Shown here: in pieces, positions 21,726 through 25,100 of the stretch
How the letters are laid out: the number at the start of each line of letters is the position of its first letter
Numbering within the stretch: position 1 is the stretch's first letter
NCBI GenBank assembly: GCA_017470485.1
Contig: JAFUYQ010000016.1
Location: 62,001 to 126,000, forward strand
Origin: Synergistaceae bacterium
GTDB taxonomy: Bacteria > Synergistota > Synergistia > Synergistales > Aminobacteriaceae
Length of the DNA stretch: 64,000 bases
Reading direction: 5' to 3'
Translations under genes and position numbers: made by a program
Notes under the pieces: model-generated
Seen by the model: only the letters and a program-made list of their open reading frames with translations
Database searches by the model: none
What the model was told of the DNA's origin: nothing

Positions 21726-24494
21726 TTAATATACATATATTCTTGCTTCCAGCGGTTTAAGTTCAAGCGGATTATTATTTGCCTCGCTGCTCATGAGAAT
21801 CTTTTTTCCTGAAAATTCATCAGGCAGTCTCACGGGCTTTAACGAGAAATTCGCAACAGTAAGAGCTTTACGGCCTTCATGCTCCCTGACAAAAGCGAAA
21901 ACCTCTTGGCTGTCCTCAAGAATTTCCCTGTAACTTCCCATCGTTATAACAGGATTTTTCTTCCTTAAATCGGAAAGCCTCCTGTACCACGACAGCACCG
22001 AGTCAGAATCAGCCGACTCGCTATCAGCATTAACGGCGGTGTAATTCGGGTTGACGGGAAGCCACGAATCGCCCGAAGTGAAACCGGCATTCTTTCCGGC
22101 AGTCCACTGCATCGGCGTTCTTGCGTTATCACGTGTGAAATACCTCACAAACTTCATGGCCTCATCGGGCGAAAATCCCTCCTTAACAGCAAGGTCATAC
22201 TGTCCTTTCGTCTGAATGTCGTCAAGCCCGTCTATATTCTTCCAATCGTAATTAGTCATTCCAAGCTCCTCGCCCTGATAGATGAACGGCGTTCCCCTCA
22301 TCGTGAGAAGGACAGTTCCGAGAACTTTAGCGGCCTTAACGGGGTCAGCACCTTCTGGGAAGAAATGATTAACGCTTCTGGGCTGGTCATGGTTCTCGAA
22401 GAATACAGGATACCAGCCGTTAGCCTCAGTTGCTTTCTGACTGTTTGAGATTGCGCGCTTTAGGTCTGTGAGTGTCCATTCGACGGGACGGCACCATATT
22501 TCGGCCTTTCCGAGCGGCAATGTTACGTGGCTGAACTCGAAAAGCATATCGAACACCCCGTTTTCGCCGACCCACAAGGGCAGTTCGTCAGCACTGACTC
22601 CGTTAGCCTCGCCGACCATGAAAATATCAGTGTCCCCTTTGACCTCGTTTTTGAACTCGTGGAGGTAATCAAGTATACCGGGCTGATTGGCTGTCATATT
22701 GTGAACGTTCACAGTGCCGTCCTCAGCGTCAGGCTCACCGTCAAGAAATTCATCAGGTTTCTTAATGTAAGTTATCGCGTCAATTCTGAAGCCTCCTACG
22801 CCTTTATCGAGCCAGAATTTTGCAGCGTCATAGAGCGCGTACCTGACCTCTGGATTAGCCCAGTTCAAATCGGGCTGTTCCTTCGCGAAAGTGTGAAGGT
22901 AATACTGATTTCGTTCGGGCGAAAATTCCCATGCGCTTCCGCCGAAAATACTTCTCCAGTTCGTAGGGGCTGAACCGTCCGGCTTAGGGCTGCGCCATAT
23001 GAACCAGTCCGATTTAGGATTACTCAATGAGGATTTAGACTCCTGAAACCATTGATGTTTATCCGAGCAATGATTGAAGACTAAATCCATGACGATTTTT
23101 ATTCCGCGCTTCTTTGACTCTCTGATGAGTGCGTCAAAATCCTTCATCGTTCCGAAGTTTTCGCCTATCGCCGTGTAATTTGAGATGTCATAGCCGTTAT
23201 CAATCATCGGCGAAGGGTAAACAGGCGTTATCCACACGGCATTGACTCCCAAGCTGCGAATGTAATCGAGTTTTGAGGTAATGCCTTTGAGGTCGCCTGT
23301 TCCTGAACCGTCAGTATCAAGAAAACTTTTCGGGTAAACCTGATATACTGCGCCTGACTGCCACCATTTTAATTTTTCACCTGACATTTTTTTTTTGAGC
23401 CTCAGTATTCTTAACACGCTTTCATTAATTCTTGCCTCTGAAATTTTCCCTGACTTCACGGCCTCGATAATTCCGTCGAAAGCCTCGCGGTAATCGAAAG
23501 GCATAAGGATAATATCATTACCGGCCTCAAGCGCAAGCACAGCAGCTTCAGATGAAGTGTAATTCTTAGCGACTGCGCCCATGTTCATAGCGTCAGTGAT
23601 GATAACGCCGTCATAGCCGAGTTCGTTCCGAAGTTTTCCCGTAACCATCTCACGGGACAATGAGGCAGGAAGGTTATCAGTTGTTATGTTCTTCATGGTG
23701 ATGTGAGCGGTCATGACTGTGTCGGTCTTGCTGAAGTTTTCACGGAACGGAATAATCTCAGCTTTGAGTAGCTCGTCCCAAGTTTTACTCACGGAGACGT
23801 AATCTTCATGAGTATCGTCCTTAGTGTCGCCGTGTCCCGGAAAGTGCTTTAAGCAGCCAGCGATGTTATTTTCATGGAGGCCGTCAAGGAACTGGCCGGC
23901 TAATTTCGAGACGAGTTCCGGACTGCTTCCGAATGCCCTGTCGCCGATGACTTTATTTTCCGGATTGGTATAGATGTCGGCAATGGGTGCGAAATCCAGA
24001 TTGAAGCCGTAATCCTTCAAGTATGAGGCGATGTATGAGGCAGTTTCTTTTACACGGCCTGAGTCGCCGATTGCTTTAACACTCTGGAATTTTTTGACGG
24101 TGAAACTTTTGTGGTTAGCGATTCTTGAGATTTGTCCGCCCTCCTCGTCAATAGTCATTAACGGATATATGCCGGACGCTTTCTTGAGGCCGGAAGTGTA
24201 TTGCATGAGCTGTATCGGGGAGTCAAAGTTTTTCCCGAAGATTATGAATCCTCCGGCAGGGTAATCTTTAAGTGTCTCGCGCATTAAAGGCGAGATTGAT
24301 TTTACGCCGAATTTTCTGGGGGCATGAATCTGTTCGGGACTTAATGAAGTTTCGAGCTGGTCAGGACGGATTACAAAGAGCTGTCCGACTTTCTCGCGTA
24401 GTGTCATGGACTTGAGGATTTCGGAAGGGGTGAAGTCCGCACTTGCTGTGCTGAACGTCATTAGCATTATCAGGAATGCCGTTATTAATTTCAT
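21726..24494 (-). CDS. Secreted GH3 beta-N-acetylhexosaminidase-type / GH13 alpha-glucosidase-type fusion
   Basis: 922 residues from the ATG that has GGAGG 8 bases upstream. Signal peptide (ITAFLIMLMTFSTASA). Residues about 25-368 are a complete GH3 domain of NagZ type: TIDEEGGQISRI, LDFAPIADIYTN, the KHFPGHGDTKDDTHED His-Asp motif (216-231) and the nucleophile in VIITDAMNMG (D301). Residues about 376-922 are a complete GH13 enzyme of oligo-1,6-glucosidase/alpha-glucosidase type: WWQSGAVYQVYPKSF, DLVFNHCSD, GGFRIDAI (nucleophile D572), MVGEANG (acid E629), FFENHDQPR (D703) and the C-terminal beta domain. Each half looks intact. The junction sits on an A10 tract (see separate entry), so two products are possible. 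Confidence 0.85.
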   Translation of the reverse strand: MKLITAFLIMLMTFSTASADFTPSEILKSMTLREKVGQLFVIRPDQLETSLSPEQIHAPRKFGVKSISPLMRETLKDYPAGGFIIFGKNFDSPIQLMQYTSGLKKASGIYPLMTIDEEGGQISRIANHKSFTVKKFQSVKAIGDSGRVKETASYIASYLKDYGFNLDFAPIADIYTNPENKVIGDRAFGSSPELVSKLAGQFLDGLHENNIAGCLKHFPGHGDTKDDTHEDYVSVSKTWDELLKAEIIPFRENFSKTDTVMTAHITMKNITTDNLPASLSREMVTGKLRNELGYDGVIITDAMNMGAVAKNYTSSEAAVLALEAGNDIILMPFDYREAFDGIIEAVKSGKISEARINESVLRILRLKKKMSGEKLKWWQSGAVYQVYPKSFLDTDGSGTGDLKGITSKLDYIRSLGVNAVWITPVYPSPMIDNGYDISNYTAIGENFGTMKDFDALIRESKKRGIKIVMDLVFNHCSDKHQWFQESKSSLSNPKSDWFIWRSPKPDGSAPTNWRSIFGGSAWEFSPERNQYYLHTFAKEQPDLNWANPEVRYALYDAAKFWLDKGVGGFRIDAITYIKKPDEFLDGEPDAEDGTVNVHNMTANQPGILDYLHEFKNEVKGDTDIFMVGEANGVSADELPLWVGENGVFDMLFEFSHVTLPLGKAEIWCRPVEWTLTDLKRAISNSQKATEANGWYPVFFENHDQPRSVNHFFPEGADPVKAAKVLGTVLLTMRGTPFIYQGEELGMTNYDWKNIDGLDDIQTKGQYDLAVKEGFSPDEAMKFVRYFTRDNARTPMQWTAGKNAGFTSGDSWLPVNPNYTAVNADSESADSDSVLSWYRRLSDLRKKNPVITMGSYREILEDSQEVFAFVREHEGRKALTVANFSLKPVRLPDEFSGKKILMSSEANNNPLELKPLEARIYVY
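23387..23396 (-). repeat. A10 homopolymer at the GH3/GH13 junction
   Basis: Ten A on the coding (minus) strand read Lys-Lys-Lys and the first base of Met. They end the GH3 part (RILRLKKK) and begin the GH13 part (MSGEKLKWW). Losing or gaining one A would stop translation within a few codons (LKKKCQVKN stop, or LKKKNVR stop), giving a GH3-only protein. The internal ATG could also start GH13 alone, though only a GAGG with long spacing precedes it. Confidence 0.8.
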
Positions 24495-24554
24495 TTTATG
24501 TGCCTCCATATATAGAGATTTGCTTATACTTTAGCATAACTTTTCTAATTATGA

Positions 24555-24563: not shown

Positions 24564-24591
24564 TTTTAGTCAATTTATGGAGATTAGGGTA

Positions 24592-24942
24592 ATGAAGCGC
24601 ACTTTTGTACAAACACACGAATTTTCGCGGAACTGGGACAGATTAGGTTTTACTGATAATGATTTGCAGGAGCTTGAGGAGCAGATTATGACAAATCCTA
24701 AACATTGGCCGGTTATTCGAGGTACAGGCAAGTTACGGAAGATGCGTTTTGCGTTCCAGAACCGCAGTAAAAGGGACAGTGTTCGCGTATGTTATGCAGA
24801 TTTTGACGTTTACTCTGTAACATTTTTGATTACCGTTTACCCTAAAAATGAAAAGGATTCACTTTCTAAACAGGAGTGCAATAACATTAAGAAACTGATT
24901 GATATTCTTGAAGCTGAGTTAGCAAGGAGGTTTTATAAATGA
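24592..24942 (+). CDS. RelE/HigB-like toxin
   Basis: 116 residues. The pattern GTGKLRKMRFAFQNRSKR, VRVCYADFDVY, FLITVYPKNEKDSLSKQE is that of the RelE-type mRNA interferase family that pairs with short Xre antitoxins (toxin gene first). The family cuts mRNA, normally on the ribosome. The ATG at 24592 has GGAG 10 bases upstream; an in-frame ATG at 24577 lacks a ribosome binding site. The stop overlaps the next ATG (ATGA), as in a co-translated pair. Confidence 0.75.
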   Translation: MKRTFVQTHEFSRNWDRLGFTDNDLQELEEQIMTNPKHWPVIRGTGKLRKMRFAFQNRSKRDSVRVCYADFDVYSVTFLITVYPKNEKDSLSKQECNNIKKLIDILEAELARRFYK

Positions 24943-25100
24943 GCGTATATGAAAGCATAATTGCAGGATTAACGGAGGCCGTTGAAGATGCCAGAAGTGA
25001 ACAGAAAATTTTGAAACACTATACAATGGAAATCCCTGATGATACTTTGCACACTGCTCCGCCTAAATTCCTGAACATACCGCTTCCAGTAACAGAATAA
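24939..25100 (+). CDS. Short antitoxin-like protein, no HTH domain
   Basis: 53 residues: MSVYESIIAGLTEAVEDARS, then KILKHYTMEIPDD and a Pro-rich end PPKFLNIPLPVTE. The first 30 residues match the toxin-binding N-terminus of Xre-type antitoxins of this toxin family (M-s-Y-e-S-i...GL.EA.e). Those usually continue into a helix-turn-helix of about 60 residues; here the protein stops instead and a terminator follows at once. It may be a natural minimal antitoxin or a truncated one. AAGGAGG lies 8 bases before the ATG. Confidence 0.65.
   Translation: MSVYESIIAGLTEAVEDARSEQKILKHYTMEIPDDTLHTAPPKFLNIPLPVTE

Follow-up and report, generated by a model that had tools for sequence, protein, structure and literature searches.

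One predicted exported protein combines a NagZ-like GH3 domain with a GH13 alpha-glucosidase across most of a Synergistaceae genus

Multi-activity glycoside hydrolases, such as the GH5–GH10 types, are secreted as one chain that carries two catalytic GH domains (PMC6626019). Among single-activity enzymes, BspAG13_31A of the GH13_31 group is specific for alpha-1,4 bonds (PMC10096246). Tracts of nine or ten A are slippage-prone in bacteria, and the A9 tract of Thermus thermophilus dnaX makes about half of the product short (PMC1088944); homopolymers are also established sites of phase variation (PMC3711429). The gene described here combines two of these themes, as it joins a GH3 and a GH13 enzyme at a run of ten A. 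It was found in a 64,000-nucleotide stretch (the window) from the incomplete genome, 1.95 Mb in 35 contigs, of a gut-dwelling member of the Synergistaceae; related public records are Fretibacterium/Synergistaceae assemblies from rumen and gut. Its predicted product resembles the GH5–GH10 types in carrying two catalytic GH domains on one exported chain, but, unlike them, both domains would be exo-acting, on the unrelated beta-GlcNAc and alpha-Glc bonds. This pairing of exo-glycosidases is unusual and is kept across a genus most of whose members are uncultured; the library that we searched yielded no paper on a GH3–GH13 fusion.

The two-enzyme open reading frame lies on the minus strand (21726..24509, 927 codons). 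Its likely start is the ATG at 24494, with another in-frame ATG at 24509; the 922 residues of the original prediction are right when counted from the MKL start at 24494, the full frame having 927 codons. A putative export signal (MKLITAFLIMLMTFSTASAD, 24435..24494) forms the N-terminal extension. By eye, its translation shows a lysine, a hydrophobic stretch and then A-S-A, and a comparable stretch is kept in relatives, which agrees with the proposal of a single exported protein. The NagZ-type GH3 catalytic domain follows (23397..24404, residues 36–371; Pfam PF00933, Glyco_hydro_3, E 8.6e-71, profile positions 1–316 of 316 covered), then the A10 homopolymer (23387..23396; T10 on the plus strand), read as CTC AAA AAA AAA ATG and encoding K372–K374 plus the first base of M375. 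A variable linker, (M)SGEK (23370..23387), whose sequence and length differ among fused relatives, leads to the LKWWQ motif that starts the GH13 alpha-glucosidase (21729..23369, residues ~381–927; PF00128, E 1.1e-150). The Alpha-amylase profile is matched in full at residues 390–858, and the GH13 C-terminal domain weakly. Both catalytic domains are thus complete within one protein, and the domain boundaries place the join at their natural ends, as had been proposed; the stretch across the junction reads ILRLKKKMSGEKLK.

The best PDB matches of the GH3 half are the beta-N-acetylglucosaminidase 6k5j and Bacillus subtilis NagZ (YbbD, 3bmx). Alignment to both structures places the catalytic dyad at D232/H234, within KHFPGHGDTKDDTH, and the nucleophile at D306; all three residues are invariant across 23 fused proteins. 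With these NagZ-type enzymes the half shares the GH3 N-terminal domain, the KHFPGHGDT..D(T/S)H motif and the TDA nucleophile motif. Whereas B. subtilis NagZ carries its own C-terminal domain after GH3, the chain here runs on into a GH13 enzyme. The predicted activity is that of a NagZ-like exo-beta-N-acetylhexosaminidase; we do not name the half nagZ itself because it scores 178 against the cut-off of 207 for the NCBIfam NagZ equivalog PRK05337.

The GH13 half keeps its catalytic residues D577 (GFRIDAI), E634 (GEAN) and D708 (NHDQPR), which are invariant in the relatives compared. In GH13 enzymes, a valine after the nucleophile may mark alpha-1,6 specificity; here the FRIDAI motif, as in 2ze0, has an alanine at that position. 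The nearest solved structures are the alpha-glucosidases 2ze0 and 5zcb, the latter of which we take to be BspAG13_31A. The likeness to these GH13_31 alpha-(1→4)-glucosidases extends to a full-length match and to the GFR(I/V)DAI, GEAN and NHD motifs; the difference is that the present enzyme is fused behind GH3 and, by prediction, exported. The oligo-1,6-glucosidase 1uok belongs to the same GH13 group and matches strongly (E 5e-155), but it ranks below the alpha-1,4-glucosidases. The label of oligo-1,6-glucosidase first given to this half is therefore not established. Assignment as a trehalose-6-phosphate hydrolase (TreC) was rejected at 570 bits, below the 799-bit cut-off of TIGR02403.

To place the join in context, we classified the corresponding junction in 43 genomes of the genus. 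GH3 and GH13 run in frame through the same join in 25 of them (one, G014, ends its contig inside GH13), with domain identities of 57–85%. The two genes are adjacent but split in three genomes: G023, where the tract is A9, and G022 and G029, where a TAA is directly followed by the ATG. In eight genomes no GH3 lies next to GH13, which begins at its N-terminus with a signal-like segment of its own; two more (G037 and G038; L088:2897-3685 and L089:2870-3658) have a signal and a Peptidase_C39_2-like domain ahead of GH13 in place of GH3; the locus is interrupted by contig ends in G028, and four genomes have no close GH13. In the nearest genus (G065–G067), GH3 is a separate gene and the free GH13 bears its own hydrophobic, export-like N-terminal segment. 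The junction is hypervariable in letters and length, yet neither active site varies among the 23 fused proteins, a pattern that fits a working two-enzyme protein rather than an assembly accident. Separate adjacent genes do exist, in the A9 genome and the two TAA-ATG genomes, and one could imagine that an indel introduced in sequencing or assembly merged two such genes in the window genome, as the original prediction allowed. Since 24 further genomes of the genus show the in-frame fusion, and 21 of the fused genomes hold no A10 homopolymer to miscall, we discard this origin: it is refuted for the family and has next to no chance of holding for the window genome. The fusion is genuine and common to most of the genus, as judged by these comparisons.

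We consider it likely that the gene is a lineage-specific fusion of a signal-bearing NagZ-like GH3 and a GH13 alpha-glucosidase, yielding one exported polypeptide with two independent exo-glycosidases, in which the A10 is incidental. The GH3 part would supply the export signal for GH13, thus doubling as its carrier, and the protein would probably act outside the cytoplasm as a bifunctional exo-glycosidase on mixed glycans, trimming their beta-GlcNAc and alpha-glucose ends.

The tract itself was described as ten A followed by ATG; in the window sequence there are ten A in total, the last being the A of the ATG. In a structure model of moderate confidence (pLDDT 72, pTM 0.56), it encodes the final turn of the helix that closes GH3 (358–375), and we envision it as an ordinary lysine-rich stretch there. 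A slip to A9 would meet a stop 5 codons past the tract and a slip to A11 a stop 3 codons past it, in line with the predicted termination within seven codons. These prompt stops in both slipped frames, together with the dnaX precedent, make it conceivable that programmed transcriptional slippage sets a ratio of GH3-only to GH3–GH13 product. The T. thermophilus case shares the in-frame A tract and the shortened product of a slip, but the tract here is not conserved among orthologues, and the second product is hypothetical. A10 is present only in G000, G015, G040 and G041, that is, in 4 of the 25 fused genomes, where programmed slippage would call for a conserved tract. The linkers of the other 21 read KQK, KRK, KEK, AAGAAGAAG or others, in which the middle lysine becomes Q, R or E, or AAG codons are used, and the four named versions occur within the A10-bearing clade as well. 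No other slippery motif is conserved at the junction among the fused relatives, and nothing else is kept at the site.

Tract frequency is likewise unremarkable: 88 kb of coding DNA of the source genome holds one run of at least ten A, against 0.43 ± 0.67 expected from synonymous shuffles, so that neither specific avoidance nor enrichment of A10 was seen in this sample. Over the whole 1.95 Mb there are 11 distinct A/T tracts of at least ten, mostly intergenic or at gene ends. A signal in favour of the tract comes from codon choice: each of the four A10 genomes writes the three tract lysines as AAA, compared with 7 of 36 other conserved lysines that are AAA throughout the four (naive p about 0.007, for a comparison chosen after the fact among neighbouring codons that share context). 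This mild excess could mean that the tract is kept; a single clade of the A-tract rows was not rejected (p-AU 0.26), however, and shared descent may therefore explain the AAA retention. Because the tract is not common to the fused relatives, A10 is probably not a built-in switch, and we regard slippage as an enzyme-ratio device as very unlikely; the comparative evidence does not favour the idea. Bacterial RNA polymerase is known to slip on stretches of at least nine A; on chemical grounds the tract is therefore likely to yield some GH3-only product at a low level, which would most likely be noise. Elsewhere in the genome, a second A10, followed by TG, lies inside a 132-aa open reading frame (L112:1603-1612; GACGAAAAAAAAAATGATG), and A14/T15 tracts with near-identical flanks occur on two contigs (L113:1664-1677 and L114:1211-1225), between open reading frames of 310 and 357 aa, probably as a repeated element at contig ends.

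The split genomes raise the question of where GH13 starts and in which compartment it ends up. At the G022 and G029 junctions (L017 and L024), AAGGAG(G/A) lies about 8 nt upstream of the GH13 ATG and no GH13 signal peptide is present there; owing to the TAA-ATG arrangement, GH13 must start at this ATG unless the stop is read through. Such an internal ribosome start might also operate in fused genes, giving a cytoplasmic GH13 alone alongside the fusion: the junction ATG is found in many of them, and AAGGAGA precedes it by about 8 nt in G010 and G003. In the window clade, however, GAGG sits 12 nt from the ATG, and the junction methionine is missing in many fused relatives. Where present, it matches a hydrophobic position of the last GH3 helix, as seen in the free GH3 of G032, which ends KLKAEMLK*, so there is no need to read the ATG as the start of GH13. 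We therefore reject the junction ATG as a conserved GH13 start in general, and rate a dual start in the fused genes as rather unlikely.

In the GH13 tree, the window genome pairs with G023 as its sister, whose tract is A9 and which keeps both halves intact and the catalytic residues; this is a single case from a fragmented assembly (3.7 kb contig) in which a consensus error is possible. Taken at face value, the pair would suit a phase switch by replication slippage at the DNA level, with A10 giving the exported fusion and A9 an exported GH3 plus a signal-less GH13, at the kind of site where phase variation is well known. The lone A9 case and the lack of a tract in the other fused relatives make this highly improbable. 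The broader proposal, that either A9 or a slipped transcript restarts a signal-less GH13 at the tract ATG and the tract thus acts as a localisation switch, appears still slightly less probable; if true, one base would shift an enzyme between compartments. In the split G023, G022 and G029, GH13 would either be cytoplasmic now or be restored to the fusion by recoding. A change of a single base, like that seen in the A9 relative, would remove the export signal of GH13. Should the split states prove real, the export of the enzyme hinges on such single-base changes, and the locus offers a natural experiment in gene fusion and fission and in protein localisation.

With the tract incidental, as we prefer to see it, the fusion is one state of an enzyme whose N-terminal partner has changed repeatedly. 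Since free-signal, C39-fused and GH3-fused forms all occur, GH13 is, on its sequence features, an exported enzyme that swaps among GH3, a C39-like domain and a bare signal; judged in the same way, some export route is retained in most forms, the split G023, G022 and G029 excepted. With the neighbouring genus as outgroup, the GH13 tree has free signal-bearing GH13s at its base, followed by G029 and G022, with fused and further free forms mixed above them. A single clade of the fused and adjacent GH13s, as expected for one origin without loss, was rejected (p-AU 2.7e-6), which implies several joinings or several separations. We count at least four changes on the GH13 tree and eight between fused and not fused on an rpoB tree, numbers limited by quick trees with many weak forks. 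The free GH13 of G001 and the C39-fused one of G038 lie beside glmS, like many fused forms, so this is probably the same locus with partner change in place. The orientation of glmS varies and is usually convergent; an operon or functional link was accordingly rejected, and the neighbourhood is taken as locus conservation only.

Between glmS and the fusion gene, a 121-aa open reading frame (24577–25100, plus strand), with a weak RelE match below the cut-off (PF06296, E 0.0017), is overlapped by a 53-aa frame (24939–25100), forming a toxin–antitoxin-like pair that was not found in the flanks of the relatives' loci. Finally, two contigs labelled Selenomonadaceae and Solobacterium (L057 and L080) carry GH13s 65% and 57% identical to that of the window, possibly as mis-binned Synergistaceae sequence or through transfer.
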